From Tolumonas osonensis (GTDB lineage Bacteria; Pseudomonadota; Gammaproteobacteria; Enterobacterales; Aeromonadaceae), in NCBI RefSeq assembly GCF_014202415.1, contig NZ_JACHGR010000003.1, positions 62,001 through 126,000 of the forward strand: a DNA stretch of 64,000 bases, in the 5' to 3' direction. The position numbers were made by a program, and so were the translations under genes. Shown in pieces: positions 5,606 through 36,686 of this stretch; the stretch's first letter is position 1, and each line of letters starts with the position of its first letter. The notes beneath the pieces are model-generated. The model had not been told where the DNA came from and searched no databases. It worked only from the letters and a program-made list of their open reading frames with translations.

Positions 5606-5616
5606 CTCCATCTCCC

Positions 5617-6651: not shown

Positions 6652-6682
6652 GTTCTTGTCCTTGAAAAAGATTCGGTGAAAA

Positions 6683-7889: not shown

Positions 7890-7902
7890 ACAAACTCTCT
7901 CC

Positions 7903-9426: not shown

Positions 9427-9429
9427 AGT

Positions 9430-21409: not shown

Positions 21410-21563
21410 CGCCAAACCTCCATATCGCAAAATAAGAAATCTGGATGTTCTGAGATTAACCCGAACGCCAATTTAAGTTGTTAAGCGCCCATGACTTCAT
21501 TATTTCCTCCATATCATGGGGATCTGTATTGGGAGGAGGCTCATCACCTCCCCCAATCCTTCA

Positions 21564-23930
21564 CTATTGCCGCGCCAATGCCATCTGAATAGCCAACGCC
21601 GGATCAACCTGATGGCCTTCTCCCTCGTCTTCCGCTATCGACAGCAATACACCTTTCACTTTACCGTTGAACGAATTGTGTCCCGGTGGATAATCAGGAG
21701 AAATTGCCGCACCGCTATCCTCGCCAACATCGCAACCATCGTCTGCGGAGAAAATCATCGCCAGTGTTGCATCGATCCTGCCTTCGCCGACTTTTTGGCC
21801 ATCAATGAAAAGCGTAGCCATGCCACCTTTACCCATTCCGCCACCATCGTAAGCAAACTCCATACGAACCTGGTGTTCTCCTGCTGGGATCCGATCTGCA
21901 GATTCCACCATAAAGAGTTTCAAACCACCCCAGTTGTAGCAGTACTTGAGCTTGCCGTCTTTCGCATACAGAACCCAGCCACCAATATTGGCCCCCTGGG
22001 AGATAATCACCCCTTCAGCGCCTTTTTCAGGCACCACAATTTCAGCGGTGACCGAGTGCGACTTATTCTTGAGGTTCAGAACGCAGTTCTCAGATAACCG
22101 CCCCATTCCACCGAACAACAGTTGCGTTTTACCCTTGACCAGCACAGGCCGGCCGGCTGTATCCGGATTAATTTTTTCGATCATTCGATCATCAAGCGGT
22201 AATACTTTGTATCGTGTTGCTTCAATCAACCAAAGTCGTTGTAACTCGAGCAATTTTTGCGGATTTGTTTTAGCAACGTCGTTTGCCTGGCTCCAGTCAC
22301 CCGGTTCATAGAGCTCCCAGATATCGTCGTCAAAAGCAGGAACTTCAGCCCCCATTGGAGCCCACGGCGTGCGATGCTTAGTAACTGCAGTCCACCCTTT
22401 GTGATAGATACCCCGGTTGCCGAACATTTCGAAATACTGCGTTTCGTGACGGTCCGGTGCCTGCTCTTCGTTAAACGAATAGAGCATGCTGGTACCTTCA
22501 ATCGGGTCTTGCTGAATACCATCAACAGATACAGGCTGAGGAATGCCAGCCGCTTCCAGAATGGTCGGCGCAACATCGATCACATGCGAGAATTGCATCC
22601 GCAGTTCATTTTTAGCTTTGATCCCATTAGGCCAGGATACAATGGTACCGTTACGTGTTCCGCCCCAGTGTGATGCAACCTGTTTAGTCCACTGATAAGG
22701 AGTGTTCATCGCCAGCGCCCAGGCCGCCGAGAAGTGGTTATACGATTCCGGCCCGCCAAGCTTATCAAGCCGTTCAGTCAGGTATTCAGGTGTCTCATAC
22801 AACTGCAGCATGTTGAAATAGCTCATTTCGTTGAAACAGCCATTAACGCCACCTTCTGCGGAAGCACCGTTATCACCGATAATGTAGTAAATGAGCGTGT
22901 CTTCATAGACGCCGAGTTTCTTCAGACCATCGATCACGCGGCCAATATGGTAGTCGGTGTATTCCATGAAGCCAGCGTAAACTTCCATCTGGCGGCGCAG
23001 TACTGGCTTCATATCTTCAGGTACTGAATCCCATGCAGGCACTTCGCTGTTAGGCGCCGTGAGCTGGCAATCTGGCGAAACAACGCCCAGTCTTTTCTGA
23101 CGTGCTAGCGTTTCTTCACGTAACTTGTCCCAGCCTTGATCAAACTGGCCTTTATATTTGTCGGCCCACTCTTTCGGTACATGGTGCGGAGCATGTGTTG
23201 CACCTGGCGCAAAATAGACAAAAAACGGCTTATCAGACGCTAATGCCTTCTGCTGTGAAATCCAGCCGTTCGCTTTATCAGCCAAGTCTTCCATGAGGTG
23301 ATAACCCTCTTCCGGGGTTTTCTTCACTTCAATAGGTGTCGTACCCTCGAAAAGGGTTGGGTACCACTGGTTGGCTTCACCACCTATGAACCCGTAAAAG
23401 TATTCAAACCCACCGCCACCGGTTGGCCACGCATCAAACGGGCCGGCAGAGCTTGTCTGCCACACAGGCACTTCATGGCACTTACCAAACTGCGCCGTAG
23501 AATATCCGTTGAGTTTCAGTGTTTTTGCCAGTGGTGACATAGAGTTAGGAAGAACTGAGCAGTAACCCGGTGCACCGGTTGCAATTTCGGTGATGCCACC
23601 CATGCCCGCTGAATGGTGATTACGGCCTGTGAGTAATGCCTGCCGTGTTGGTGAACACAATGCTGTTGTGTGGAATCGGTTGTATTTTAGTCCCTCTTCT
23701 GCCAGTTTTTCTGCAGCAGGAGTCTGACATGGCCCACCAAAGGCACTGGAAGAGCCAAACCCGGCATCATCAATCAGGATCAGCAGTACATTAGGTGCGC
23801 CTCTAGGTGGCCGCAATTGTTCAATGGGAGGAAATTTACTGTCAGGATCCTTTGCATCGTATGCAATGAATGAAGGCTTCTCTGTATTCGGCATCGGAAG
23901 ATGGGAACGATGTTTCTTTCCGTCGCTCAT
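21564..23930 (-). CDS. Arylsulfatase, Cys-type, apparently cytosolic
   Basis: A 788-aa sulfatase hydrolysing sulfate esters. The metal-binding LLILIDDAGFGSSSAFGG lies at residues 49-66. The formylglycine signature CSPTRQALLTGRN starts at Cys92. Further conserved blocks are FGKCHE, PFFVYFAPGATHAPHH and YYIIGDNGASAEGG. The C-terminal ~200 residues form an extra beta-rich domain typical of large AtsA-type enzymes. There is no signal peptide. Being Cys-type, it needs formylglycine maturation, which the radical-SAM enzyme at 32134-33525 can supply even without oxygen. The start at 23930 follows AGGAG, and a FixJ-type site lies about 65 nt upstream. Confidence 0.95.
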   Translation of the reverse strand: MSDGKKHRSHLPMPNTEKPSFIAYDAKDPDSKFPPIEQLRPPRGAPNVLLILIDDAGFGSSSAFGGPCQTPAAEKLAEEGLKYNRFHTTALCSPTRQALLTGRNHHSAGMGGITEIATGAPGYCSVLPNSMSPLAKTLKLNGYSTAQFGKCHEVPVWQTSSAGPFDAWPTGGGGFEYFYGFIGGEANQWYPTLFEGTTPIEVKKTPEEGYHLMEDLADKANGWISQQKALASDKPFFVYFAPGATHAPHHVPKEWADKYKGQFDQGWDKLREETLARQKRLGVVSPDCQLTAPNSEVPAWDSVPEDMKPVLRRQMEVYAGFMEYTDYHIGRVIDGLKKLGVYEDTLIYYIIGDNGASAEGGVNGCFNEMSYFNMLQLYETPEYLTERLDKLGGPESYNHFSAAWALAMNTPYQWTKQVASHWGGTRNGTIVSWPNGIKAKNELRMQFSHVIDVAPTILEAAGIPQPVSVDGIQQDPIEGTSMLYSFNEEQAPDRHETQYFEMFGNRGIYHKGWTAVTKHRTPWAPMGAEVPAFDDDIWELYEPGDWSQANDVAKTNPQKLLELQRLWLIEATRYKVLPLDDRMIEKINPDTAGRPVLVKGKTQLLFGGMGRLSENCVLNLKNKSHSVTAEIVVPEKGAEGVIISQGANIGGWVLYAKDGKLKYCYNWGGLKLFMVESADRIPAGEHQVRMEFAYDGGGMGKGGMATLFIDGQKVGEGRIDATLAMIFSADDGCDVGEDSGAAISPDYPPGHNSFNGKVKGVLLSIAEDEGEGHQVDPALAIQMALARQ

Positions 23931-23966: not shown

Positions 23967-24009
23967 ATACTAGATGCCAGATTCATCAGCTGCCATTAGA
24001 CTTTGGTCC
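23967..24009 (-). promoter_or_regulatory. Regulon promoter 1 (arylsulfatase)
   Basis: In gene sense, GGACCAAAGTCTAAT (23995-24009), then 22 nt, then the -10 box TAGTAT (23967-23972). One mismatch (T for C) to the shared 15-bp site GGACCAARGTCCAAT. The site abuts the -35 position, as expected for an activator contacting RNA polymerase. The arylsulfatase ATG lies about 37 nt downstream of the -10 box. Confidence 0.75.
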
Positions 24010-24102
24010 TACTCCTCCCCCCCACCTGTGTTTAATTCGGCAAATGACACTGACCTCACACTTTGATTTGATCAAATTACGAATCAATGACCTCTATAAA
24101 TG

Positions 24103-24144
24103 GGACCAAAGTCCAATTCTCCATATCTCTATACGCGCTATAAT
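24103..24144 (+). promoter_or_regulatory. Regulon promoter 2 (Gly-zipper / MBL genes)
   Basis: A perfect copy, GGACCAAAGTCCAAT (24103-24117), then 21 nt, then a consensus TATAAT (24139-24144). It points right toward the Gly-zipper gene (start 24315), leaving a long 5' leader of about 165 nt in which I see no named RNA element. It is arranged back to back with the arylsulfatase promoter, with 93 nt between the two sites. Confidence 0.78.
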
Positions 24145-24314
24145 TTTTAAATACCTTTAACTTAATGTTCACATGGAAATATTTCCCCATGTCTCTGTTT
24201 CCACTGATTAGTACATTTGTTTATCCCGGATATCCGGAGATGTAGTGTCGCTTGCGGCAGACATGCCCTTAGTCAAACAAGTCTGAATCAAGCAAGCCTG
24301 AAAGGAGTCTGAAT

Positions 24315-24827
24315 ATGAATAATCTCAAACGAATTGCCATAGTTGCCGCAACAATGTGCATTGCCTCCACTGCTATGGCACAAAAACCTGTTATCTATCC
24401 GGCAAAAGGACAAAGTTCGCAGCAGCAGAGCAAGGACGATGGTGAATGTTATACCTGGGCTAAACAGACTACCGGTATCGATCCGGCTGCAATAGCACAG
24501 ACGCCACCTCCTCAAACAACAACTACGACAACGACTTCCACAGCAGGAGGTCAGCGCGTTAAAGGTGCATTACGTGGCGCAGCCGGTGGCGCGATCATCG
24601 GTGAAATCGCGAATGATGATGCAAGCGAAGGCGCAGCTATCGGCGCAGTTGTGGGTACTATGGCTGGCGGACGTCAGGCTCGCCAGCAGCAACAGCAGCA
24701 AGCGCAACAACAGCAGCAGGCACAGCAACAGCAACAACAGGCGCAACAGCAGCAGCAACAGAAAATTGATACGTTCTATGTGTCTTATGGAGCATGCATG
24801 GAAGGGAGAGGATATACCGTCAAATAG
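24315..24827 (+). CDS. Secreted Gly-zipper protein with poly-glutamine tract
   Basis: A 170-aa protein with a signal peptide (LKRIAIVAATMCIASTAMAQ). The mature part starts QKPVIYPAKGQSSQQQSKDD, then a YMGG-type Gly-zipper helix pair (ALRGAAGGAIIGEI, then EGAAIGAVVGTMAGG). It continues into about 25 residues that are almost all Gln with a few Ala (coded by mixed CAG/CAA at 24688-24762), and ends YVSYGACMEGRGYTVK. Gly-zipper segments insert in or pack against membranes. The start follows AAAGGAG. Regulon promoter 2 lies upstream and the MBL gene follows 91 nt later. Confidence 0.85.
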   Translation: MNNLKRIAIVAATMCIASTAMAQKPVIYPAKGQSSQQQSKDDGECYTWAKQTTGIDPAAIAQTPPPQTTTTTTTSTAGGQRVKGALRGAAGGAIIGEIANDDASEGAAIGAVVGTMAGGRQARQQQQQQAQQQQQAQQQQQQAQQQQQQKIDTFYVSYGACMEGRGYTVK

Positions 24828-24918
24828 CAGCACCAATACCCTGACTTGGCATTCCAAAAACGGGATTACTATACTCATCATGAGCCCATAGGCAGACAGC
24901 AGAAGGAAAACAAAATAA

Positions 24919-26061
24919 ATGGGAAACAGCCAATCTACAGCATTGCCGGCGCTCTCCTATGAGGGGGGAACAAAAGCCATAACAATGACGCCGATCGTCG
25001 GTACACCACAACGGGAGTATGCTGAGACGTTCATCCCGGGCGAGGAAGCTCTTGAAGATGGCGAACTGCGCGTGACGATACTCGGCAGTGGCAATCCCTG
25101 GCCTACACGCGCCCAGGCCTCGGCGAGCATCCTCGTCGAAGTCGGCAACCCCGAGCGCGACGTCTTCGTTTTCGATCTGGGGACTGGTTCCCTCTCGAAT
25201 TATGCAAGCCTGAAGCTGCCGGTGAACAAACTCAATAAGGTATTCCTGACCCATCTGCACGCCGACCACATGGGCGATCTGCTCACACTCAGCGGCAGCT
25301 TCTCGAAGATTGGCCGGGCAGACGGCCCTGTTTCTGTGTGGGGTCCCAGCGGATCTGAGCCACGTTTGGGCACTCGTCACTTCGTCGAAGCGATCGAAGA
25401 AGCGCTGGCCTGGGATACTGCCGCCGGAAATGGTGCAATCAACCCGGACAGCATGAGGATCGTGGCAAACGAGTCTGACTTCAGCAAGACCCAGGTCGTC
25501 TACGAGGCTAATGGCGTGAAGGTGACTTCATTTCCTGTCGTCCACTGCATCGATGGTACCGTCGGCTACCGCCTCGATTTCGCTGGGTTATCATTCGCCT
25601 ACTCCGGAGATACACGTCCGTGCTGGCCGCTCGTGCGCGCCTGTGAAGGCGTCGACGTCCTCATTCACGAATGCTTCCCTCCGGCAGCTGCACTGGCGGC
25701 GGCATCGGGTCTTTCTATCGAACGGGCAACGATCGCACTCACAGCCGCGCATACCTCCCCAGAAGCTGCCGGTAAGGTATTCCAGCTCGTAAAACCTCGC
25801 CTGGCTTGCCTCTGGCACACGCTGCTATCGCCTCAGGTGGTGCCAATGATATTTGCGGAGTTGAACGCAGTATATGACGGTCCAACCCTCCAGACTCAGG
25901 ACTTAACGGTGATCAACATCACCCGGGAAGCTGTTGTCTCCCGTCAGGCCAAGGTATCGAATCAGTTGCCGCCGATTCCGGGCAAGCAGAGCGCAACCTT
26001 CAAACCCGTTGCGGTACCGCCGCCTGAATGGTGGGCGGAAGCGCTTATCCATTTCGACTAA
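24919..26061 (+). CDS. MBL-fold metallohydrolase (RNase Z / GntH-like)
   Basis: A 380-aa metallo-beta-lactamase-fold protein. VTILGSGNPWPTRAQASASI begins the fold. The zinc motif HLHADHMGDLL, a later His in FPVVHCIDGTVGYR, the Asp in SGDTRPCWPL and His in LIHECFPP and LWHTLLS complete the site. No signal peptide. The block order resembles database entries labelled GntH-type MBL hydrolases, but the substrate here is unknown. Codons favour C/G in third position more than the flanking Gly-zipper and DUF2845 genes, suggesting separate acquisition. It is followed by a strong terminator. Confidence 0.85.
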   Translation: MGNSQSTALPALSYEGGTKAITMTPIVGTPQREYAETFIPGEEALEDGELRVTILGSGNPWPTRAQASASILVEVGNPERDVFVFDLGTGSLSNYASLKLPVNKLNKVFLTHLHADHMGDLLTLSGSFSKIGRADGPVSVWGPSGSEPRLGTRHFVEAIEEALAWDTAAGNGAINPDSMRIVANESDFSKTQVVYEANGVKVTSFPVVHCIDGTVGYRLDFAGLSFAYSGDTRPCWPLVRACEGVDVLIHECFPPAAALAAASGLSIERATIALTAAHTSPEAAGKVFQLVKPRLACLWHTLLSPQVVPMIFAELNAVYDGPTLQTQDLTVINITREAVVSRQAKVSNQLPPIPGKQSATFKPVAVPPPEWWAEALIHFD

Positions 26062-26091
26062 CAGGTAAACGGTAACAAAGACATGCAAGGC

Positions 26092-26128
26092 AAAAGGTTC
26101 TGATTAGCAGTAGCTATCAGAACCTTTT
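26092..26128 (+). terminator. Intrinsic terminator after the MBL gene
   Basis: AAAAGGTTCTGAT (26092-26104) pairs with ATCAGAACCTTTT (26116-26128), ending in a U-run. It closes the Gly-zipper/MBL transcript. Confidence 0.85.
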
Positions 26129-26180
26129 ATACAGCAATTGTAACAAAGGGTTTAATGCTGAATATCCCCGGAGAAGAACT

Positions 26181-26492
26181 ATGAAAACACACGGACTAAT
26201 TTTAATAGGAATGTTACTTTCAACCTCTGTATTTGCTGACAACTCTCTGCGTTGTGGCGGTTCAATTATCTCTGTTGGCGATACCAAAGCTGAACTACTT
26301 ATGAAATGTGGAACAGCAGTAAGTGTTGTAGAAAGTAAGTCATCACTCGTTGAAAATACTAATGGCTCTGTATCAATGGTTACCGACAGTGAGACCTTAA
26401 TGGTAGATATGGGTAAAAATAAAATTATGATGTTAGTGACCATAAGAGATGGCGTGATTAAAGAGATAGAGAACGGCCCTCGCAATGACTAG
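26181..26492 (+). CDS. DUF2845 periplasmic protein
   Basis: A 103-aa protein with signal peptide MKTHGLILIGMLLSTSVFAD. The mature region NSLRCGGSIISVGDTKAELL, then MKCGTAVSV, is the DUF2845 signature with its two conserved cysteines, which probably form a disulfide. Function unknown. The start follows GGAGAAGAACT. It has no visible copy of the regulon site and sits between two terminators, so it is monocistronic. Confidence 0.85.
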   Translation: MKTHGLILIGMLLSTSVFADNSLRCGGSIISVGDTKAELLMKCGTAVSVVESKSSLVENTNGSVSMVTDSETLMVDMGKNKIMMLVTIRDGVIKEIENGPRND

Positions 26493-26507
26493 CGATATAG
26501 AAATATA

Positions 26508-26536
26508 AATGGTCGGGTAAAAATCCCGACCATTTT
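26508..26536. terminator. Bidirectional terminator
   Basis: AATGGTCGGG (26508-26517) and CCCGACCATT (26525-26534) with T/A-rich flanks on both sides, between the convergent DUF2845 and patatin genes. Confidence 0.85.
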
Positions 26537-26568
26537 CTTTCCGGATACATGATATTCCCTTTTTCTAT

Positions 26569-28791
26569 TTAAAAAGGTCTCCCAAGATAGAAGTACAGAG
26601 CACTGTTGCCATCTTCTGCATACCCATACCCCAGATACGCGCCGCCAAGAGGGGTATCACTACCAATAAAAATGGCACCGGATTTGAGTACTTCGTCGAA
26701 ATAGCCGGGTATCAGTGGATCGCCAACCTTTCCAGCCTCAAGTGATACACCACCGTATGCACCATCCAGAAAGGTTCCCTGCATTATTCTGCGATAATAC
26801 ATAACCCGGCCATACCGCAAACTTTCACCAACTAATTGACCTGTGGAATACCCTGATTGCTGGAGGAACCCACCCCATTGAAATTGGTCATATCTTGGTA
26901 GTGGATCGTCACCAAATTTGCCACCTGCTTTAGCCGAAAAGTTGAATATATTATCACCAGAGGAGATAACAAACGTGCCGTCAACATCCCATTTTGTATA
27001 CGGTTGATCTGTACCGAGACTTGCATTGGAGTTAAAGACATTCACACCGCTACGCCATCCTGATCTCGGAAATTGCGCACTATCCAACTGATCGAAGCGT
27101 AATTTCAGCGTATAAGCACCCTGCTTGATTTCGGACTCACCTGGCGATAAGGCTTGCGGGCCTGTATCCAGTGTCGGATTGAGTAAACCGCCCACAACCC
27201 CCAGCCGTAATTCACCATACCGGTTAAACTGTGAACCCAAGTCCACACCTGCAAGTGTGCTGAGTACGTCATAACTGGCAATACGGTTATTACCTGCATA
27301 CAGGTTAGTAGATCGTTGTTCAAATTTTGCATGCGGGGCGACAAACAGATAACTTTCTTCATCAAGTGGCTGATAGAACTCTGTTGCTATGCTGCTGGTG
27401 CGACCTAATTGAAGATCATTCCGCCACTCAGCGCCCAATGAGTTAAGCCATGTCTGACGATAGCTCACCAGCAAATTGTAGTAAGCGTCACCGCTAAAAT
27501 CACTTGATAAGCCCAGACCAAACCGCAAATAGTCCGGTCCCCACGATTTTTCCACAGCTTCAACGGCTAATACCCGCTTGTTGGGTTCTTCCAGGAAGCG
27601 ATAATTCACATGTTCGAAATCGCCGGTGCCATAGATGCGCCGCATGTCACTATCAATGGTTGCCTGATCAACTGGCTTGCCAACTTCTGTCTTCATTGTC
27701 GCCTGAACAGATGCCGGATTTACACGTTTTAAGTTATCAAATCGGATCTCATTGACTGGCCGGGTATCTGCAACAGCGACTACTTGCTGCTTCCTGCGCA
27801 CCGCTGCATATTCTTCAGCAGGCATGGAGAGCGCTGTCAGTTTTCCCGATACTTTAAGTGCTGCAGCTTCGCCAAGAGGGGCAATCTTAGTCAGGTGATC
27901 AAAGTCACCGGTCGAATAATCACCAAGCTCCGGGGAAATGAGAATATCGTCAGGCCCCAGCAGGGCAAGCGACTCTTGCACATTCTGCTCTGTCAGGATA
28001 CTAAGCATCTGACCCGATACACCAAATATCCCGGTTAATTGCTCCCGTTTCAGCAATGGCGTGCCCACATTCACGGCAATGATAATATCCGCGCCCATCT
28101 CCCGTGCAGTCTGCACCGGCAAGTTACTGGTCAGCATGCCATCCACCAGCATCATCCCATTAAACTCAGCTGGCGATACCGCACCGGGAACCGACATACT
28201 GGCCCGCATCACCAACGCCAAATCGCCTTCACTGAAAACCACTGCCTTACCAGTTACAAGATCGGTTGCAACAGCACGATAAGGTATAGGTAACTCATCA
28301 AACTGATAGTAGCCCTTTATCTTGGCCAGACGGCGTAACACGGTTTCCAGTTGCACACCCGAGACCAAACCTTTACCAACCTTAACTTCACCATTAGAAA
28401 GGCCCACTTCGGGCGTAAATAAAATCGAGTTATCGTCTTGCTTGCGACGCATAGTCAATTGCTGGCGAGGCGGATCTTCTTTAAACAACAACTCAGTAGA
28501 GATAGTTGAAAGAATTTTATCCATTTCCGGCAATGTGGTACCTGTCGCATAGGCTGCCCCGACCAACGAACCCATACTGGTACCAACGATGCAATCGATC
28601 GGCACGCGGTATTGTTCCAGCACTTTGAGAACACCAACATGCGCTGCGCCACGAGCACCACCGCCGGACAACACCAGGCATATTTTAGGGCGTTTGTGTG
28701 GATCGGTGTTCTGCACAGCATCTTCAGCTCTGACCGAGAACGCTGTAATAGAAAGCACCATGAGCAGTGCCCGTAAAATCCATGTACTCAT
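26569..28791 (-). CDS. Patatin-like phospholipase with POTRA and outer-membrane barrel (PlpD-like)
   Basis: About 740 aa from MSTWILRALLMVLSITAFSV (28791), a signal peptide. The patatin lipase domain shows the oxyanion loop SGGGARGAAHVGVL, the nucleophile Ser in GTSMGSLVGAAYATG and the Asp of the dyad in LVDGMLTSNLPV. It is followed by a POTRA-like segment (VNEIRFDNLKRVNPASVQ, then YGTGDFEHVNYRF) and a C-terminal BamA/Omp85-like barrel ending in Phe (LYFYLGRPF). This is the architecture of type Vd autotransporters such as PlpD. It follows DUF4105 on the same strand with a 66-nt gap. Confidence 0.92.
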   Translation of the reverse strand: MSTWILRALLMVLSITAFSVRAEDAVQNTDPHKRPKICLVLSGGGARGAAHVGVLKVLEQYRVPIDCIVGTSMGSLVGAAYATGTTLPEMDKILSTISTELLFKEDPPRQQLTMRRKQDDNSILFTPEVGLSNGEVKVGKGLVSGVQLETVLRRLAKIKGYYQFDELPIPYRAVATDLVTGKAVVFSEGDLALVMRASMSVPGAVSPAEFNGMMLVDGMLTSNLPVQTAREMGADIIIAVNVGTPLLKREQLTGIFGVSGQMLSILTEQNVQESLALLGPDDILISPELGDYSTGDFDHLTKIAPLGEAAALKVSGKLTALSMPAEEYAAVRRKQQVVAVADTRPVNEIRFDNLKRVNPASVQATMKTEVGKPVDQATIDSDMRRIYGTGDFEHVNYRFLEEPNKRVLAVEAVEKSWGPDYLRFGLGLSSDFSGDAYYNLLVSYRQTWLNSLGAEWRNDLQLGRTSSIATEFYQPLDEESYLFVAPHAKFEQRSTNLYAGNNRIASYDVLSTLAGVDLGSQFNRYGELRLGVVGGLLNPTLDTGPQALSPGESEIKQGAYTLKLRFDQLDSAQFPRSGWRSGVNVFNSNASLGTDQPYTKWDVDGTFVISSGDNIFNFSAKAGGKFGDDPLPRYDQFQWGGFLQQSGYSTGQLVGESLRYGRVMYYRRIMQGTFLDGAYGGVSLEAGKVGDPLIPGYFDEVLKSGAIFIGSDTPLGGAYLGYGYAEDGNSALYFYLGRPF

Positions 28792-28857
28792 ATACCAACA
28801 CCTTTTTATAGTTATCTGCATCATGGTCGCCTTAATCACCTGGACAGTATTTCCGTC

Positions 28858-29856
28858 TTATTTACGGATTAGCTGGGAAAAATCCGCAGCGCTGTCTGCA
28901 GCATGGGCCCGAACATTGGCATATGAGCGCTGCTTAAGTTCATCAAAACTCAGTCCATTAGCTTCGAGCCGTCCTTGCTCATAAAGGTACTGAGGCAAAT
29001 ATCCGCTAACCAGAATTTTCCAATCAAGAGGTATGTGTTGCTGATTAACCCGCGTTGACATCCATATGCTAGTAGTACAGTTTGTTAATAACGTGTTGTA
29101 AAATTCAGGCTCGGTTGTCAGCGCATTGATGCGACGGACATATTCGAGGAATAAGCGACGCCCGCTTTCGAGCTCTCCTTTTGCCCGATAGATATAAACG
29201 TCTTCAGGCGGGTTTTGACGATAGTTTGTGCGCAAGCGGATAACATCACGCTCATCAGCAACCACATAAAATAGTTCGTATTGACGGAAAAAACCCTTAA
29301 TTGAGGAGTAGTCTTCCCCCTTCTCTTTACGTGTTTCAATCGAAATAGCGATATGGTCGTTGTGGTTAAATTCAAAACTTAAAAATACATGGGCAATGGC
29401 CGGCCCCATCCAGTAAACGGCGATCACATCCACACCTGTCAGTTCACGCAAATCGACACGCTTATCGTAATAATGAGGTGTGTAGTCCGTTTCGCTGCGG
29501 TACTCGGAGTTGCGGATGTTATGCAGAGTGACCATGTCACCGTCGATAGTCGCCGAAGGAAGTACTGCCACATCAGTTTGCCAGTCGCGCTCATTTGATG
29601 GTTCCATACTACCCCACCAGACCAGCACAACAGCAAACAACATGATGTATCCGGTTATGGCATAACTGCGCCAGGAACGGAAAAACATGGCAAGCAGCAC
29701 GGCTAACAGAACCACAGCAAAACTTGCTGCCAGAATGTTACGCACCATTTCACTGTACGGACCTGCATTAATGAGCGCAAGAATTGCCCAGCAGCCACTT
29801 ACCGCTATCAGTAATATGAGTATCAGTAGTCCGAAGATTCGCATGATGACTTTCAT
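28858..29856 (-). CDS. DUF4105 membrane-anchored protein
   Basis: A 332-aa protein with three N-terminal membrane segments (residues about 5-28, 38-58, 65-83) and a C-terminal soluble domain of DUF4105 type. Recognisable blocks are VAVLPSATIDGDMVTLHNIR, AHVFLSFEFNHNDHIAISIE and EFYNTLLTNCTTSIW. The conserved Cys (NCTTS) and His pattern suggest a papain-like or NlpC-like fold, but activity is not established. Its ATG overlaps the stop of the upstream membrane gene (ATGA), so translation is coupled. Confidence 0.85.
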   Translation of the reverse strand: MKVIMRIFGLLILILLIAVSGCWAILALINAGPYSEMVRNILAASFAVVLLAVLLAMFFRSWRSYAITGYIMLFAVVLVWWGSMEPSNERDWQTDVAVLPSATIDGDMVTLHNIRNSEYRSETDYTPHYYDKRVDLRELTGVDVIAVYWMGPAIAHVFLSFEFNHNDHIAISIETRKEKGEDYSSIKGFFRQYELFYVVADERDVIRLRTNYRQNPPEDVYIYRAKGELESGRRLFLEYVRRINALTTEPEFYNTLLTNCTTSIWMSTRVNQQHIPLDWKILVSGYLPQYLYEQGRLEANGLSFDELKQRSYANVRAHAADSAADFSQLIRK

Positions 29857-31022
29857 AGGCCAAACAACCCCTCGAACATATTTATCATCAATTCATAAGA
29901 AGAATATTTGAACAGAGCCAGAGGCAATAATGGCAGCAACGCAGCTCCAGTGAAGCTAAGTAGTAACCGTTTGCTCACTGGCACCCACCCCATCTCGCGA
30001 ATAACATCAACACTGTTACCCAGATCGGCAAGCGACTGCAGATCCGCAGTACCCAGAAGTGGTTCATCGCTAACGCCTTTTGAGTCTATCCATTTTTTCT
30101 CGAAGTCTTCGACATAATGTGCCGCAAAATCCATATACTCATTCAGCCCCTGGACTTTACAGTCCCAGAGCTTAGGCGAGAATAAAAATAACGGCCCGAT
30201 AAACAGAAAGGCATCAATCAGCAATATGACCAGAAACACGCCATAGACAGCCTCAAAGGCCATTTCTCCGCCAATAAAAACTTCTGCGAATGCCGAACAT
30301 TGCACCGATGAAATAGCTATAACCAGAGGTAAAAAATTAACATGAACTACCTCCAGATAACCCAGACCAGCAAAACCATCAGGATGCGTCGGTATCAGAT
30401 GCAGAGGCAATCTCGATAAGCGCCAGAGGAAATACACCCATAGACCCAATTGCCACAAACAGCGCAGTACCAGAAAACGGAACAATGACATGCTCACAAT
30501 CCAATACCAGTCACCTGCCTGCGTGATATGTACGGAAACATTTGGATCATTATTTGTTGAAACCCCAAGCAACGGTGTTGCCAGGTGTAGCAGCGAAAAA
30601 ATAATAGCACTCAGCAGAAATACGGCTTCAGGTAGCCAGGAGTCTACTCCGCGACGGGTACGGATAATTGCTGCCTCCAACGCCGGAAGCGCACCCTCAG
30701 GTATAATCTTCGAACGCACAAGGTAGTTCACGAAATCAGCACAGCGGGGATTCAGCATTGATTCGAACAAAAATAACAGGGGAATAACAACTAATAGACG
30801 AACATGATCACCGACTAGTGAGAAGGTAAATAATTGATCAGTAACACCCTGTACCAGGGTCACGGCCACCAAGCCTAACCAGAAAAAGACGCCGATCGCA
30901 ACGCCCAGTGGAACGGAGTCTGTTCCGCTACGGATGAGTCCTGTATAACAACCAACGCGATACAGAGGACCACCAAGCAACGAAAAGCTGCTGTTTCCAT
31001 TTTTCTCAAGACGTTCCATCAT
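29853..31022 (-). CDS. Polytopic inner-membrane protein of unknown function
   Basis: About 389 aa (start at 31022, or 31019 one codon later; GGGGGA precedes both). I count six or seven hydrophobic segments, including VAIGVFFWLGLVAVTLVQGV, LLVVIPLLFLFES, AVFLLSAIIFSLLHLATPLL, VFLVILLIDAFLFIGPLFLF and LLLSFTGAALLPLLPLALF. The soluble stretches contain conserved-looking EYMDFAAHYVEDFEKKWIDS. No family recognised. It is the first gene of a group with DUF4105 and patatin, under regulon promoter 3. Confidence 0.75.
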   Translation of the reverse strand: MMERLEKNGNSSFSLLGGPLYRVGCYTGLIRSGTDSVPLGVAIGVFFWLGLVAVTLVQGVTDQLFTFSLVGDHVRLLVVIPLLFLFESMLNPRCADFVNYLVRSKIIPEGALPALEAAIIRTRRGVDSWLPEAVFLLSAIIFSLLHLATPLLGVSTNNDPNVSVHITQAGDWYWIVSMSLFRFLVLRCLWQLGLWVYFLWRLSRLPLHLIPTHPDGFAGLGYLEVVHVNFLPLVIAISSVQCSAFAEVFIGGEMAFEAVYGVFLVILLIDAFLFIGPLFLFSPKLWDCKVQGLNEYMDFAAHYVEDFEKKWIDSKGVSDEPLLGTADLQSLADLGNSVDVIREMGWVPVSKRLLLSFTGAALLPLLPLALFKYSSYELMINMFEGLFGL

Positions 31023-31056
31023 CTGATCCCCCGTGTACACCAATAATCACTTATAA

Positions 31057-31099
31057 AATATAGCAATAGGATCAGCCGGCAGCTATTGGACCTTGGGGT
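31057..31099 (-). promoter_or_regulatory. Regulon promoter 3 (membrane protein / DUF4105 / patatin)
   Basis: In gene sense, ACCCCAAGGTCCAAT (31085-31099), then 22 nt, then TATATT (31057-31062). The right half-site AAGGTCCAAT is perfect; the left half has two changes. The predicted transcript start lies about 30 nt before the ATG, which has a good Shine-Dalgarno sequence. Confidence 0.72.
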
Positions 31100-31194
31100 A
31101 AGACTCCTTAATAATCAAATAAAATTGAGCTCTCCAGCTATTCAGAAATGACTTAATGGATGTATGAACACCCGTTCTTAAAAACTCAAATAGT

Positions 31195-31219
31195 GCGGCC
31201 GCTGTATTACAACGGCCGC
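31195..31219 (-). terminator. Hairpin after the outer-membrane protein gene
   Basis: GCGGCCG (31195-31201) and CGGCCGC (31213-31219), read on the minus strand 27 nt past the stop of the 31246-31986 gene and followed by a loose T-rich run (GAGTTTTT). Confidence 0.55.
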
Positions 31220-31245
31220 CACCTGAATAACAGTTCGGCTAAAGG

Positions 31246-31986
31246 TTAAAAAGTGATACCTACACCAATGATCGGTCCTTCAAACGATCCATCGAAAGAA
31301 TTACCGTTCTCATTTTCAATTTTGTAATGAAGTTTCCGGTAACCGAAACGGAATGCGGTATTTTCCCAGGCTTGATACTGGAACTGTGGTTGTAATTCCC
31401 AGGTTTCTTCTGAGTCACCACCAGTGCCATAGGATAAGGTTGGATTGAAGCGCCATTTTTCCGAAATCTGGAAGCTTGGCCGAACAATGATGACTGGATC
31501 GACAAAATCGCTATCCTTGCTAAATGTACCCACTGAATCAATAGACAGTTCATTTTCAAGCGTCATTGTGCGGACACCGAGCAATACATCGACAGTTTGT
31601 CCTTCTTTCCAGCCAGAGAACTGATAACCAAGACCAAAGGTGCCCATGGTCTGTTTAATATCCAGTGCTCCGGTATGTTTATGGCCAGCCAGATCAAAAT
31701 TAAGATTAATATAATCAAATTGTACCCAGGTTACCCAAGACTTATATTGTGCAGTGCCCAGAAAGGCGGCTGACGCATCCATTTTATCCATCAGATCATT
31801 GAAGCTTGCATCCACAGATCCGGAGTGACCTCTGACTTCAACATCAGCCTTCATGCTGGCGGCCCACAAATAAGGCGTGAACTCGAACTTCCAGTCACTT
31901 TGCTCTGCAGCACTTGCAGGCATAGCAGATGCTGCCATCAATGACAAACCAAGTATTGAAGCCTTTGTTTTCATGCTGTTTTTCAT
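31246..31986 (-). CDS. Outer-membrane beta-barrel protein, unknown function
   Basis: About 246 aa from MKNSMKTKASILGL (31986), preceded by AGGGGAAATAAA. A signal peptide ends at ASA. The mature protein alternates beta strands with aromatic girdle residues (WKFEFTPYLWAASMKADVEV, WVTWVQFDYINLNFDLAG, FGYRKLHYKIE) and ends in Phe (GPIIGVGITF), typical of a small barrel. It lies between the membrane-protein operon and the sulfatase maturase. I found no good copy of the regulon site upstream, only a poor one (9 of 15). Confidence 0.75.
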   Translation of the reverse strand: MKNSMKTKASILGLSLMAASAMPASAAEQSDWKFEFTPYLWAASMKADVEVRGHSGSVDASFNDLMDKMDASAAFLGTAQYKSWVTWVQFDYINLNFDLAGHKHTGALDIKQTMGTFGLGYQFSGWKEGQTVDVLLGVRTMTLENELSIDSVGTFSKDSDFVDPVIIVRPSFQISEKWRFNPTLSYGTGGDSEETWELQPQFQYQAWENTAFRFGYRKLHYKIENENGNSFDGSFEGPIIGVGITF

Positions 31987-32133
31987 TTTATTTCCCCTGT
32001 CCCTGTTAAATTCGATCACGAGGTCCATTTGATTACATTTATTAAAGTAGATGTTCCTTGAACCAGACCATCATTACTTCAACATTCAAACAATCCAGGT
32101 GACCCCACTGCATCTATAAAACATAGAATATTT

Positions 32134-33525
32134 CTACCATTGTGGTGCGACCTCATTGACGGATGAATCCGGACTGATATCTCCATGGCAAGATTGCAAT
32201 TCCCGGCCACTACCACAAGGACATGAGTGATGAAGTCCTCGCCGGTTATCCTCAGCCAACGTTATCGCCATTAAATCTGCGGGATAACGGTTTTGCTGCA
32301 ATAACTTCACCATAGTCCGCATTGCCGGCTGTGTATGAGTAAAGAATAGTTCAAGACCAGCACAAAGATAATTCTGGCCTGGTTCACCATCATGAGATTG
32401 TGCAAACCGGTCTTTTGGACAGCCGCCATTGCACAGTGGCCTCGCCGCACAGCTTTTGCATTGTGCCGTCAAGGTATCAAATTTATCCTGCCCGAATTTT
32501 TGCTGCTTAGTCGAAACAATCAGGTCAAGCATATGCGTTTCATGGATGTTGCCCAGCTTGTAATCCGGCTCTACAAAGTGATCACAAGAGTATAGATCGC
32601 CGTTATATTCCAGTGCCGGGCCATAGCCGCATGTGGGGGCGTGAATGCACAGCAGATGACTACCGAAATAAGCCTCCAGCGTTACATCAAAGAGCTGAAC
32701 GTATACCTCGCCAATATCATGACGCACCCACTCTTCGAAGATATCAATCATGAAACGACCGTATTGTTTGCTATCGACGGAACGCTCAGTCACCAGATTA
32801 CCGGTCTGCGTGTAGAGCAGCCGCTGGCGACCAGGTTGATCACTCCAGCCCTGATTCGCAATATCAATGGTCTGTGCCGTGGCACGCTCGACGATGGGAA
32901 TGAATTGCATCCAGGTTGCCCCCAGCTCGTCACGCAGGAAGCGATAGACCGCTCGCCCATGATGCTGATTGGCGGCGTTAACCGTGCACAGAATGTTGAC
33001 GTCGACCCCATGCCGTTGCAGGCAGCGCCAGCCTTCCATTACCTTGTCGAAGGTGCCCTTTTTCTGGCGGGTAAGACGGTAAGTGTCATGTAGCTCACGC
33101 GGGCCATCAACACTGAGGCCAACCAGGAAATTGTATTCTTTAAAGAAAGCACACCAGTCATCATCAAGTAGAATGCCGTTTGTCTGGAAGGTATGCAGTA
33201 TCTCCTGCTGTGGACGACGATACTTTTCGACCAGTTCAACCGAATGGCGGAAGAAAGCCAATTTCATCAACGTGGGCTCCCCCCCCTGCCAGGCAACTGT
33301 GACCTGAGATGAACGATGAGACTCCAATAGTTGACGGATATAAGTTTCGAGAGTTTGCTCTGACATCCGTTTTTTTTCATTCGGATACAGCGCATCTTTG
33401 GATAAGAAAAAGCAGTAGGTGCAGTCAATGTTGCATGTCGAGCCACTCGGTTTAGCCAGTAAGTGAAACCCAGGCGGCGCATTAGAGCGTGATTCTTTAC
33501 TGAATTCTGGCGACCGATTCAACAC
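32134..33525 (-). CDS. Anaerobic sulfatase-maturating enzyme (radical SAM, SPASM)
   Basis: About 463 aa. The radical-SAM cluster motif CNIDCTYC lies near residue 27, followed by VTVAWQGGEPTLM and FQTNGILLDDDWC. The SPASM region shows CGYGPALEYNGDLYSCDHFV and CKSCAARPLCNGGCPKDRF. This is the anSME family, which oxidises the sulfatase active-site Cys to formylglycine. The C-terminus carries an extra SEC-C zinc motif (CPCGSGRELQSCHG). I chose the GTG at 33525 because AGGAG lies 7 nt before it; a TTG at 33555 is less likely. Its partner is the arylsulfatase at 21564-23930, and both have the same promoter site. Confidence 0.95.
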   Translation of the reverse strand: MLNRSPEFSKESRSNAPPGFHLLAKPSGSTCNIDCTYCFFLSKDALYPNEKKRMSEQTLETYIRQLLESHRSSQVTVAWQGGEPTLMKLAFFRHSVELVEKYRRPQQEILHTFQTNGILLDDDWCAFFKEYNFLVGLSVDGPRELHDTYRLTRQKKGTFDKVMEGWRCLQRHGVDVNILCTVNAANQHHGRAVYRFLRDELGATWMQFIPIVERATAQTIDIANQGWSDQPGRQRLLYTQTGNLVTERSVDSKQYGRFMIDIFEEWVRHDIGEVYVQLFDVTLEAYFGSHLLCIHAPTCGYGPALEYNGDLYSCDHFVEPDYKLGNIHETHMLDLIVSTKQQKFGQDKFDTLTAQCKSCAARPLCNGGCPKDRFAQSHDGEPGQNYLCAGLELFFTHTQPAMRTMVKLLQQNRYPADLMAITLAEDNRRGLHHSCPCGSGRELQSCHGDISPDSSVNEVAPQW

Positions 33526-33567
33526 TGGGTTTCTCCTGGCAGCAGTAGCTGACAAACAAATGCTAAA

Positions 33568-33610
33568 ACCTTAACAAGCGTATATAGGGGTCGCTATTGG
33601 ACCTTGGTCT
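33568..33610 (-). promoter_or_regulatory. Regulon promoter 4 (sulfatase maturase)
   Basis: In gene sense, AGACCAAGGTCCAAT (33596-33610; one change from the consensus), then 22 nt, then the weak -10 TAAGGT (33568-33573). It is placed in the 94-nt gap between the upstream membrane-protein gene and the maturase start. Confidence 0.75.
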
Positions 33611-33619
33611 AATACTCAT

Positions 33620-33991
33620 TTAACGGGCGATACGCGTAACCAGTCCACGCAGGATCAGATACGGCAGGATCGCCAGTGCAATCGCTACGATGATTGCCTC
33701 CCCCGGATACACGAAATGCAGCACTTTGATCTGGAATATGACATCAAGGACTATCGCCAGAACAAATACCTTGCCAACACCTTTCCAGCCATCTTTTAAC
33801 ATTTCCGCCCGATTGACCGGATCGGTGAAAAGAGACCAGAAATACGGTGCCCGACCTTCTCTGGCATCTTTCAATCCTGCAATAATGGCAAAGATTGCCG
33901 CCATTACCGGTTGTAGCAGCAATCTGAAATGCAATGGTCCGCTGATCCTGTCAACCATATTTTCCATAATCCGCAGCCATATATCGTGCAT
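33620..33991 (-). CDS. Small integral membrane protein
   Basis: A 123-aa protein with three or four hydrophobic helices (LLLQPVMAAIFAIIAGL, VFVLAIVLDVIFQI, EAIIVAIALAILPYLILRGL) and a short cytosolic loop DAREGRAPYFWSLFTDPVNR. No family name recognised. It ends the receiver/DUF202/membrane transcript, 31 nt after the previous gene. Confidence 0.75.
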   Translation of the reverse strand: MHDIWLRIMENMVDRISGPLHFRLLLQPVMAAIFAIIAGLKDAREGRAPYFWSLFTDPVNRAEMLKDGWKGVGKVFVLAIVLDVIFQIKVLHFVYPGEAIIVAIALAILPYLILRGLVTRIAR

Positions 33992-34022
33992 ATCCCTAGC
34001 CCTCTTATGTCAGAAAAACGAC

Positions 34023-34742
34023 TCACCCTAGCGGTAACAGAATCAACGCATAACACACGCCGCCAGCCACAAATGGCAGAAAACGCCCATCTTTTTCTTT
34101 AGGTAATTCCATGATGATACTGTTAATGATGATCCCGCCCGAGATGAATGCAACCATCAGAGCGAGAACCATATGAGGCAGTGCAAATAGTTGTCCCGCG
34201 GCCCAGCCAAGCATGCACATGCCAGCAAGAATGAAACGCTCACGCAGTCCGTACAAGACGCCATATTTCTCCGGCAATTCGTGTGATATTGCCAAAAAAT
34301 GAAATATTGTTGCCATTGCGTATAACACGAGCGAATCTTCCGGATCGAGTCGCTGTACCAGCATATAACCTATCAGCCAGACATAAGCGGCTAAACTTCC
34401 GATATGCAGCTGTAATTTCCACCTTTCCTGCTTTGAATATCCAGTTTCCGACACACTATGAGACAGGTTATTGAGACCGTAGAACAGCAGGAAGCCCAGC
34501 AGAGCCAGCAGATAAATGACTTTCCCTTCAAACCACAATGGCACAGGCGCGGATGCCACGAAAAGACTGCGTACCGTCTGCAATTCCGGCATGATTTGCA
34601 TAAAAACATAAGCCACAGCCATTCCAGACCCAAAAGAAACCAGACTTCGGTTATCATGAACTAGCTGTTTAAAAGGATGCACATACTCCCCGGCCAGGAA
34701 CGTCGCAGTAAGCAGTAGTACAATCACGGCGGTTTCAATCAT
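34023..34742 (-). CDS. Polytopic membrane protein, ZIP-like
   Basis: A 239-aa protein with seven or eight hydrophobic segments. The N-terminal half (FLAGEYVHPFKQLVHDNRSL, then VSFGSGMAVAYVFMQIMPEL) and the His in FHFLAISHELPEKYG recall ZIP-family metal transporters, but the fit is loose. It lies 14 nt after the DUF202 gene in the same operon. Confidence 0.7.
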   Translation of the reverse strand: MIETAVIVLLLTATFLAGEYVHPFKQLVHDNRSLVSFGSGMAVAYVFMQIMPELQTVRSLFVASAPVPLWFEGKVIYLLALLGFLLFYGLNNLSHSVSETGYSKQERWKLQLHIGSLAAYVWLIGYMLVQRLDPEDSLVLYAMATIFHFLAISHELPEKYGVLYGLRERFILAGMCMLGWAAGQLFALPHMVLALMVAFISGGIIINSIIMELPKEKDGRFLPFVAGGVCYALILLPLG

Positions 34743-34756
34743 CTTGATGCCCGATA

Positions 34757-35155
34757 TCAGAACAATCTGGTGACAATGCTGATGAACGTAACAAGACCAA
34801 TTGTAGCCATCACTATCGCCATCACAATTGTGCTTCGCTTAAATCGCACATTAAACTGATGTAACTCTTTGATTGATATCCAGTACTCAATTGTACCCAT
34901 CACCATGGCGACAGTACCCATCCCCGTAAGAAATAAACCTATACTCTCGGGGGTATGTGTTTTTGGCAGCATACCACCTGCACTTTCAATGCCCTGAAGA
35001 ACTTTATAAATTGTAAATCCGAAACTAATCAATGAAAGTGAAGTGCGCAGCCAGGCCATTAATGTACGATCTGCAGCCATCATAGAACGTTTTGCAGCCA
35101 ATGATGTCCGTATCTGAGCCAGTTCATTGGATGACATTTTTACTTCGTCAGTCAT
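34757..35155 (-). CDS. DUF202 (YidH-type) membrane protein
   Basis: A 132-aa protein of the DUF202 family: LAAKRSMMAADRTLMAWLRT, then SLSLISFGFTIYKVLQ, a second membrane helix (LFLTGMGTVAMVMGTIEYWI) and a third at the C-terminus. These small proteins often accompany transport or stress genes; function unknown. No strong Shine-Dalgarno sequence is seen at 35155; an internal Met at 35137 is an alternative. Confidence 0.85.
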   Translation of the reverse strand: MTDEVKMSSNELAQIRTSLAAKRSMMAADRTLMAWLRTSLSLISFGFTIYKVLQGIESAGGMLPKTHTPESIGLFLTGMGTVAMVMGTIEYWISIKELHQFNVRFKRSTIVMAIVMATIGLVTFISIVTRLF

Positions 35156-35218
35156 ATCAGCTATTCCTCAATCAAAAAAACATCACAGTATCTGTAGCGC
35201 GATACACTTACGCTGCTT

Positions 35219-35599
35219 TCAGCTGTTTTTTACAGATACAACTGATCCAATCGCATCAAATAAAACCCGCTCGTCAATAGGCTTTAGCAGGTAGGCAACC
35301 GCGCCATCACCGCGCGCACGAACACCCCACTCAGGCATATCATGGCCTGTCATAATAATTACTGGCAGTAACTTGCCTGCGTTAATCAGCTGAGCCTGAA
35401 CATCCAGGCCATTTGTCTCCGACATGAGCACATCAAGAATCACACAGTCGATAGACAACGTCAGCCCGGCATCAAGAAACTCAGCGCCTGATTGAAAAGT
35501 CTTAACATGCATTCCGGCTGAGCGAATAAGCCGCTCCAGCGCCTTGCGTACAGACTCTTCATCGTCAACAACGGCAATTAAGGGTGATGTTCTATTCAT
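35219..35599 (-). CDS. Stand-alone response-regulator receiver domain
   Basis: A 126-aa single receiver domain with no output domain: acidic pair in IAVVDDEESVRKALERLI, phospho-acceptor Asp56 in CVILDVLMS, the Thr in IIMTGHD and Lys in YLLKPID. It resembles the receiver of the FixJ-type regulator at 36715-37350 (VDDxxSVRKAxxRLxR) and may compete for the same kinase. The ATG at 35599 has no Shine-Dalgarno sequence and coincides with the predicted transcript start of regulon promoter 5, so the message may be leaderless. Confidence 0.9.
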   Translation of the reverse strand: MNRTSPLIAVVDDEESVRKALERLIRSAGMHVKTFQSGAEFLDAGLTLSIDCVILDVLMSETNGLDVQAQLINAGKLLPVIIMTGHDMPEWGVRARGDGAVAYLLKPIDERVLFDAIGSVVSVKNS

Positions 35600-35605
35600 A
35601 ATAGT

Positions 35606-35648
35606 AAACTAGTGTGCTCAAGGCGGTCCTGGTATTGGACTTTGGACC
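35606..35648 (-). promoter_or_regulatory. Regulon promoter 5 (receiver/DUF202 operon)
   Basis: In gene sense, GGTCCAAAGTCCAAT (35634-35648; one change), then 22 nt, then TAGTTT (35606-35611). With the outer bases it forms the dyad TATTGG-N8-CCAATA. The predicted start of transcription falls on or next to the A of the receiver gene's ATG. Confidence 0.75.
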
Positions 35649-35725
35649 AATATTTACTGTAACACACAAATAGAACTGCAGGAATATCGCTAAATGCAGG
35701 TGCGTTCACGAAAGCGGAAGAACAT

Positions 35726-35768
35726 AGACTAAAGGCCAATTACCACTTTATTGTGGATCTACTACGAT
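35726..35768 (+). promoter_or_regulatory. Regulon promoter 6 (outer-membrane transporter-like protein)
   Basis: AGACTAAAGGCCAAT (35726-35740; three changes from GGACCAARGTCCAAT), then exactly 22 nt, then TACGAT (35763-35768). It points right to the gene at 35829. The most degenerate of the six, but the spacing to the -10 box is the same. Confidence 0.62.
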
Positions 35769-35828: not shown

Positions 35829-36686
35829 ATGATATTCAGTGATCCCAGTGAAAAAAAAGCGATTAAACATGGAGAATGGCTCACGTCAGGCCAGGCTTTG
35901 GCACCAGCATTAGCAGCGCTGATATCCTGCGGTGTGGTACAGCAATCAGTGGCAGCCGATGACAGCGCTGAACTGGCAAAGAAACTGGCAAATCCAATCG
36001 CAAACCTGCTCAGTGTGCCTGTGAAACTCGACTGGGATACCGGTATTGGGCCGGAAGATGCGGATCGCTCCACTTACGTTATTCAGCCAGTTATCCCTGT
36101 TACCCTGAATCAGAACTGGAATCTGATCTCTCGCACGATCGTCCCATTTATTGACGCAGAATCGCCGGTGGCAGGCGGTAGCAATGAGTCAGGTCTGGGG
36201 GACATCACGCAAAGCTTCTTCTTTTCACCTAACGCACCGACCAGTAATGGCTGGATCTGGGGCGGCGGACCAGTGCTGCTCATCCCTTCAGCCACCAATG
36301 ATATGGTCGGAAGCGAAAAATGGGGAACCGGCCCGACCCTGGTTGCGCTCAGACAGACCAATGGCTGGACATACGGTATTCTTGCCAATCATATCTGGTC
36401 GGTCGCAGGCAGCGACCAACGAAGTGATATCAGCACAACCTTCCTTCAGCCTTTCCTGTCGTATACCACCAAAACCTATACGACTATCGGTGTAAATACC
36501 GAGTCCACCTACGACTGGAAAAACGAGCAATGGCTTGTACCGATCAACCTGAGCGTAAGTCAATTAGTGAAGTTCGGTAAGCAACCGGTCAGCTTCGCAC
36601 TCGGTACCCGTTCATATGTTGAAGGTCCGACTGGTGGCCCGGATTGGGGACTGCGGTTCTCGGTTACGCTCCTGTTCCCGAAATAA
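35829..36686 (+). CDS. Outer-membrane transporter-like protein (neuromedin U-type)
   Basis: A 285-aa protein of the group often annotated as transporter/neuromedin U. It has an N-terminal export signal after a polar stretch (LAPALAALISCGVVQQSVAA), then an amphipathic beta-rich body: DTGIGPEDADRSTYVIQPVI, SGLGDITQSFFFSP, WGGGPVLLIPSATNDM, SEKWGTGPTLVALRQ, ending in LRFSVTLLFPK. It is probably a small barrel or periplasmic beta protein with unknown cargo. The start at 35829 follows GGAGGA. Promoter 6 lies upstream. Confidence 0.82.
   Translation: MIFSDPSEKKAIKHGEWLTSGQALAPALAALISCGVVQQSVAADDSAELAKKLANPIANLLSVPVKLDWDTGIGPEDADRSTYVIQPVIPVTLNQNWNLISRTIVPFIDAESPVAGGSNESGLGDITQSFFFSPNAPTSNGWIWGGGPVLLIPSATNDMVGSEKWGTGPTLVALRQTNGWTYGILANHIWSVAGSDQRSDISTTFLQPFLSYTTKTYTTIGVNTESTYDWKNEQWLVPINLSVSQLVKFGKQPVSFALGTRSYVEGPTGGPDWGLRFSVTLLFPK

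Follow-up and report, generated by a model that had tools for sequence, protein, structure and literature searches.

A candidate FixJ-type two-component regulon of Tolumonas osonensis, marked by an 18-bp inverted repeat that recurs across bacterial phyla

FixJ of the FixL/FixJ system and StyR of the StyS/StyR system both consist of a receiver and a GerE helix-turn-helix (HTH) domain, and their boxes and targets differ from those described here. DosR/DevR is actinobacterial, and its dyad GGGAC...GTCCC has the same GGAC/GTCC half-sites as the box below. Response-regulator boxes are commonly held to drift between lineages. CrbR, of the CrbS/CrbR system of Pseudomonas (MxtR/ErdR; ACTU motif), is a LuxR-family response regulator, and in P. 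fluorescens activation requires a CrbR box that occupies -52 to -36 of a sigma-70 promoter, according to the available part of that report (PMC5715377). EL222 is a one-component, light-driven LOV-HTH protein without a receiver domain, and its published consensus, as given in the available part of the source, is RGNCYWWRGNCY, which contains the core GGACCAARGTCC (PMC10521638). Here we describe a locus in a 64,000-nucleotide (nt) stretch of Tolumonas osonensis DNA, hereafter the window (NCBI RefSeq assembly GCF_014202415.1, contig NZ_JACHGR010000003.1, positions 62,001 to 126,000), in which six copies of an 18-bp inverted repeat, ATTGGAC-CAAR-GTCCAAT, stand before genes around the gene of a FixJ-type response regulator. 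It is very probably a new and widespread regulon of the FixJ/NarL two-component type, unusual for its conservation across phyla; no earlier description of the regulon or its box was found in the open-licence literature searched, which leaves most subscription journals outside.

The initial annotation had placed a 15-bp site at six positions of the window (23995, 24103, 31085, 33596, 35634, and 35726), in gene sense and each ahead of a TANNNT hexamer. All six were found again with the sequence, orientation, and spacing claimed, the gap being 22 nt at five sites and 21 nt at 24103. The full inverted repeat became visible once other genomes were compared, and the 15-mer is this box minus its leading ATT. 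With coordinates given as window positions throughout, Box 1 (GTAGGACCAAAGTCTAAT, 23995-24012, minus strand) has its -10 hexamer TAGTAT at 23967-23972, Box 2 (ATGGGACCAAAGTCCAAT, 24100-24117, plus strand) TATAAT at 24139-24144, Box 3 (CTTACCCCAAGGTCCAAT, 31085-31102, minus strand) TATATT at 31057-31062, Box 4 (ATTAGACCAAGGTCCAAT, 33596-33613, minus strand) TAAGGT at 33568-33573, Box 5 (ATTGGTCCAAAGTCCAAT, 35634-35651, minus strand) TAGTTT at 35606-35611, and Box 6 (CATAGACTAAAGGCCAAT, 35723-35740, plus strand) TACGAT at 35763-35768. A scoring matrix trained on other genomes only gave 33.6 for Box 5, 32.7 for Box 4, 31.9 for Box 2, 27.2 for Box 1, 14.3 for Box 3, and 7.4 for Box 6, and the best scores on ten shuffled windows were 13.3 and 1.8. 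By the matrix alone four sites are strong, Box 3 is borderline and near the best shuffle, and Box 6 is weak, which corrects the annotation. The AAAGGCCAAT variant of Box 6 was seen again in five loci of other genomes (L085, L091, L093, L112, and L113).

The pattern GGACCAARGTCCAAT, with up to three mismatches, matched the window eight times, against a shuffle mean of 3.06 (standard deviation 1.48; largest 7 in 100 shuffles). These matches are the six sites, one opposite-strand reading of 33596, and one unrelated position (14996). Over the whole genome (3,285,284 bases), allowing up to two mismatches gave five matches of the 15-mer, four of them in this locus, compared with 16 matches for the reversed control pattern; thus it is the clustering that is unusual, not the number of matches. 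At the fifth match (C7:35623), TANNNT is missing from the range of 19-25 nt. When box and -10 were combined in the degenerate pattern RGNCYAARGNCYAATN{21,22}TANNNT, which was composed after the sites had been seen, all five matches in the genome fell in this locus (every site except 31085) and the reversed control gave none. That the sites are promoter-like words collected by eye could be argued from the two weak boxes and from loose genome-wide matches fewer than those of the control. Against this stand the clustering and the conservation across genomes described next. We consider the four strong sites to be beyond chance and reject this reading, to which we attach almost no probability.

A collection holding one genome per species was scanned for the 15-mer followed by N21-22 and TANNNT, and at least 119 loci over 13 named phyla were found. 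Some of them, notably the single matches, must be chance; by a rough estimate, not a computed figure, chance alone would give about 30 matches across the entire collection. Eighty loci (L048-L127) were analysed first and the other 39 (L128-L166) served as a held-out test. The first 80 represent 11 named phyla, with 31 of them from Paraburkholderia, Burkholderia, and Caballeronia, and the held-out loci add Planctomycetota and Chloroflexota; many loci are metagenome bins. Although absent from the scan pattern, the bases A, T, and T precede the 15-mer in 73, 71, and 59 of 89 sites; the corresponding counts for the held-out loci are 32, 37, and 28 (42 sites). In 49 site genomes (one locus per genome, 50 chosen from 64 site loci, L088 then dropping out) the 17-mer with at most one mismatch had 211 matches, a count that includes both-strand readings of symmetric variants, compared with two for the reversed control. 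The regulon had been called local, but the box recurs across many phyla, and local is too narrow a word.

The spacing is conserved as well. Among relatives' sites with [TC]ANNNT at 21-23 nt (n = 110), most of which came from a pattern already demanding 21-22 nt, the hexamer lies at 22 nt in 96, at 21 nt in 14, and at 23 nt in none. In 32 additional sites that do not match the scan pattern, TANNNT stands at 22 nt in seven cases and at 21 nt in three, compared with seven occurrences in total over the other 36 spacings (0-37). Among the scan-failing sites with at most two mismatches, CANNNT is found at 22 nt in 11 of 25, a class spotted only post hoc. After the box no -35 hexamer is conserved (0.54, 0.51, 0.29, 0.10, 0.01, and 0.05 bits). 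A fixed distance to a second element would also suit the -35 region of an alternative sigma factor of the extracytoplasmic function (ECF) type, whose promoters usually have a spacing of about 16-17. The 18-bp dyad symmetry, the 22-nt spacing, and the sigma-70-like TANNNT argue against such an element; on these grounds we reject it as very improbable and retain an activator box.

In Burkholderiaceae a second box follows the receiver-only gene, with CANNAT replacing TANNNT at 22 nt (L057:3638, L082:1390, L100:1200, L127:7395, and others). Tandem or abutting boxes occur in L051, L069 (1400-1432), and L103 (1766-1798), and on contigs C103 and C141 of genome G460 the symmetric variant TTGGACCATGGTCCAAT is repeated, with six strand-wise matches at three places.

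The regulator gene in the window (36715-37350, minus strand) encodes a receiver (Pfam Response_reg, 2.8e-26) and a LuxR/GerE HTH domain (GerE, 4.2e-20). Of the first 80 loci, 22 encode a FixJ-type regulator of full length, defined by E < 1e-45 against the window protein; outside these, the regulators of L068 and L105 are cut by the contig end and that of L054 is distant. In 20 of the 22 loci a site (matrix score of at least 18) lies within 600 nt 3' of the regulator gene on the same strand. The order regulator, site, receiver-only gene was seen in 17 of the 22, counting L060 with an intervening gene and L111 and L122, in which the receiver start as called overlaps the site. The held-out loci gave the same picture: the regulator is present in 13 of 39, a site is at that place in 12 of the 13, and all 13 proteins read EKT[IV]K.

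The site-linked regulators span nine named phyla and group with the window protein. In a tree of 55 regulators, 23 site-linked proteins (the window's included) and two others lie beyond one branch with 100/100 support, and the site label changes twice on the tree, against 17.8 times in shuffles (0 of 500 as low). G416 has a regulator beside its site inside the group and a paralogue outside it. A quick tree enlarged to 64 rows (51 earlier rows and the 13 held-out proteins; 35 site-linked) still gave two changes, against 21.4 in shuffles. In this tree the nearest relative of the window regulator is that of L161 (Methylomicrobium sp. RS1). The recognition helix of the site-linked group is EKT[IV]K-x-HR, and that of the window protein VEKTIKVHRARVMEKL, with EKTIKVHR. 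All 22 site-linked rows have Lys at residue 176, where the 27 outsiders have Glu (24), Asp (2), or Gln (1). Furthermore, among 33 genomes that had no part in building the profile, a regulator match of at least 290 bits was found in 15 of the 18 that carry at least three sites versus 4 of the 15 that carry fewer (p = 0.0016); the 290-bit line was set after the scores had been seen, and at 300 bits the counts are 13 of 18 versus 3 of 15 (p = 0.005). Site number and profile score correlate over these genomes (Spearman 0.56). The proposal of the initial annotation that the regulator at 36715-37350 reads the site is well supported by this linkage across genomes, and we take it as the probable reader. 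One outcome that the annotation had named as refuting, sites and regulator occurring independently in other genomes, was not observed.

Several observations weigh against this reading, and the exceptions among them must be met by any account. Genomes G102, G210, and G434 lack a sub-group regulator despite a good site whose -10 is at 22 nt; G470, G483, and G486 have 3, 4, and 9 sites with best scores of just 266-278 bits; in G086 and G239 the sub-group helix is present but the 17-mer is not. The regulator profile matches 140 of 369 genomes of the window's class at E 1e-50 (eight candidates scored per genome), nearly all without sites, and so the broad family is no predictor of the box; only the sub-group is. 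In the same class the 17-mer matches 11 of 369 genomes, compared with 12 for the reversed control (hand count), so that single matches there are at chance level; more than one match was found only in the window genome, G000 (3), and in G416 (5 matches at 4 places). The outsiders in the residue comparison were drawn solely from the window's class, and StyR also has Lys176, which is thus not exclusive to the group. Two of the six window boxes, 31085 and 35726, are weak. Ten of 21 island proteins have no match in the first 80 loci, which are short, and three more have matches there but no site of their own.

The sites lacking a sub-group regulator are at L186:6756 (G102, before a DUF1254-like gene), L188:1952 (G434), and L187:9009 and 9520 (G210, around a receiver-like gene).

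The regulator is related to known proteins to different degrees. StyR (1yio, 272 bits) and FixJ (5xso, 221 bits) are the best solved profile matches. For the HTH domain alone StyR is the best solved match, with EVTVKVHR and a Val at 173 unlike this group, and EL222 is the second best, with EKTVKMHR; DosR/DevR is more distant (1zlj, E 0.0017). FixJ reads RTIEVYR or RTVEVHR, with Glu where the site-linked group has Lys176, and the canonical FixJ helix (RT[VI]E) was not found in this group. The EL222 consensus RGNCYWWRGNCY matches the window six times, and five of the six are sites of the initial annotation (all but 31085); since the shuffle mean is 3.4, the number is unremarkable. Two literature candidates were discarded: RpuR uses a direct repeat, according to the available part of its report (PMC9100948), and an Azospirillum match to GGACCAA is a primer.

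The comparison with CrbR bears on another explanation, in which a different LuxR-type regulator, for instance one resembling CrbR, reads the box and the FixJ-type gene just happens to lie nearby. The boxes of the two systems are alike in place: with the -10 taken as starting at -12, those described here lie at about -52 to -35. In the available part of the P. fluorescens report the CrbR boxes (TACTACCAAAGTCTAAT, CTAGACTTACGTCCAAT) are similar and have the same position, and the imperfect inverted repeat resembles the box here in its core, which reads ACCAAAGTC in one of the matches listed (PMC5715377). The three genomes with sites and no sub-group regulator would also fit. However, sub-group membership tracks the site over nine named phyla and in the held-out loci, the regulator gene lies next to a site in 20 of the 22 first-set loci and 12 of the 13 held-out loci that have it, and in its own genome the strong boxes are only in the island and a single protein matches the profile at E 1e-35. 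We regard another reader as improbable. Membership of CrbS/CrbR itself was rejected on kinase architecture: CrbS is fused to an SLC5 symporter and its system has acetate genes as targets, while the system here has a PAS kinase, envelope genes, and the ATTGGAC/GTCCAAT dyad. In the window kinase only PAS, HisKA, and HATPase_c families were detected at E 1e-5, with no SLC5 symporter or STAC domain. No acs/actP-type family was found in the island or among 25 listed of 55 families downstream of sites (102 open reading frames, ORFs).

We think it very probable, judging from these sequence relations, that the locus is a self-contained two-component system in which the FixJ-type regulator binds the 18-bp dyad and acts by class II activation on envelope targets. 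The kinase gene (37316-39097, minus strand; Pfam PAS_3, PAS_4, HisKA, and HATPase_c, with N-terminal hydrophobic segments by eye) overlaps the regulator gene and most likely encodes its cognate partner; kinase matches at E 1e-6 were found on 29 of the 80 loci. The membrane kinase would sense a signal and phosphorylate the regulator, in which the phosphorylatable D56 and K106 are invariant in alignment A1 (the window regulator and 21 others; L103, an over-long ORF, was left out). A regulator dimer may then bind ATTGGAC-CAAR-GTCCAAT, 22 nt (occasionally 21) before the -10, and from about -43.5 recruit sigma-70 RNA polymerase as a class II activator to promoters without a recognisable -35. The receiver-only protein (35219-35599, minus strand; Response_reg 2.2e-24), with an acidic pocket and Asp56, has D12, D13, D56, and K106 invariant among 19 sequences. 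As a predicted target it probably exerts feedback, competing for phosphate of the kinase. The regulator might instead repress these promoters, as dyads can be operators and EL222 has been engineered as a repressor by siting its boxes within a promoter, according to the available part of that source (PMC10521638). The box lies at about -52 to -35, a position shared with the CrbR box that serves activation (PMC5715377), and is followed by no conserved -35 hexamer. This argues for activation, and we find repression improbable.

Box, spacing, and recognition helix are kept together from Pseudomonadota to Nitrospirota, Gemmatimonadota, and Acidobacteriota, and therefore the regulon can be defined by sequence alone in genomes without experiments. 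On a broader suggestion our opinion is evenly divided: that the kinase, the FixJ-type regulator, the receiver-only partner, and promoters with one fixed 18-bp code form a portable cassette which moved from phylum to phylum and kept its specificity. In that case the box could be predicted from the helix EKT[IV]K-x-HR, and the regulon in turn from the box, even for uncultured bacteria. The module would offer a common regulator for genes of unknown function (DUF202, DUF2092, DUF3300, DUF3313, Lnb_N, and Gly-zipper) and is a natural test case for receiver-only proteins that tune a kinase.

The predicted targets in the window are mostly envelope-associated. Box 1 precedes an arylsulfatase gene (21564-23930) and a bestrophin-like gene (20642-21430), both on the minus strand, and Box 2 precedes, on the plus strand, genes for a Gly-zipper (24315-24827), an MBL-fold (24919-26061), and a DUF2845 protein (26181-26492). 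Downstream of Box 3 on the minus strand are a membrane protein (29853-31043), Lnb_N/DUF4105 (28858-29856), and patatin-Omp85 (26569-28839), and downstream of Box 4, also on the minus strand, a radical-SAM/SPASM sulfatase-maturase-like gene (32134-33555) and an outer-membrane-like gene (31246-32028). The start of the maturase gene is probably GTG 33525 (after AGGAG) and not TTG 33555, as judged by eye. Box 5 precedes the receiver-only gene, a DUF202 gene (34757-35155), and the genes at 34023-34742 and 33620-33991 (minus strand), and Box 6 an outer-membrane-like gene (35829-36686, plus strand).

Some homologues of these genes have a site in other genomes. Among the first 80 loci, homologues with their own site at most 450 nt upstream were found for the bestrophin-like protein (1 of 1; 309 nt upstream in Paraburkholderia L088), Gly-zipper (4 of 9, and 2 of 6 in the held-out loci), the membrane protein 29853-31043 (1 of 1; a strong site directly upstream in L104), sulfatase (1 of 3), DUF3313 (1 of 1), and, repeatedly, receivers. 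In the Thiobacillus bin L164 a close arylsulfatase homologue has its own site 98 nt upstream, and a close maturase homologue (E 6.5e-170) has one 44 nt upstream. L161 has much island content in common with the window: its kinase and regulator are homologous, the strand opposite to them carries receiver, DUF3313, Gly-zipper, and sulfatase genes, and the receiver gene is headed by a site. L144 has the three-gene set of Box 3 with no site on its strand, and in G416 an Lnb_N-patatin cluster is downstream of a site without a good -10 on that strand.

The ORFs downstream of sites were picked mechanically, so that some are false, and 102 of 108 were scanned with Pfam; L085:3090-3431, L115:7735-7971, L115:4239-5141, L119:3676-4374, L122:3-494, and L124:3111-3464 were omitted as likely spurious or redundant. 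Response_reg was found in 21 of the 102, two of them also with a LuxR-type domain. Among the 25 listed of 55 families, there are patatin (4; DUF3734 in 3), Ysc84 (4), DUF2092 (2), and sigma-70 regions (2), and the single cases include a Na+/H+ antiporter, carbonic anhydrase, sulfatase, DUF3300, DUF3313, fasciclin, OmpW, and desulfoferrodoxin. The regulon appears to consist mostly of envelope and stress genes. Two ORFs under a box match Sigma70_r2 and r4 (L069:497-1264 and L103:840-1658), and we take them to resemble RpoH; a regulatory cascade is possible.

Comparison with related genomes indicates that the module was probably acquired. The likely island extends from 16247 to 41724, from a gene which we take to be integrase-like (16247-17470) to one presumed to be DUF1254-like (40300-41724). 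Its right-hand neighbour (42049-43500) was found in nine genomes of the genus (the window's included), and in the three congeners examined it has different genes to its left. The regulator profile matches 31 of 75 genomes of the family, the best outside the window genome at 205 bits compared with 305, and ten congeners gave no match at E 1e-35. Box and -10 were found in one of the 75 genomes. A relative of the maturase-like protein is present in 12 of the 75 (the window's included), with at most 51% identity elsewhere. Adjoining the island, window positions 1-13055 contain a CRISPR array, whose repeat is GAAACACCCCCACGGGCGTGGGGACGAC, together with Cas-like genes, apparently of type I-E by eye.

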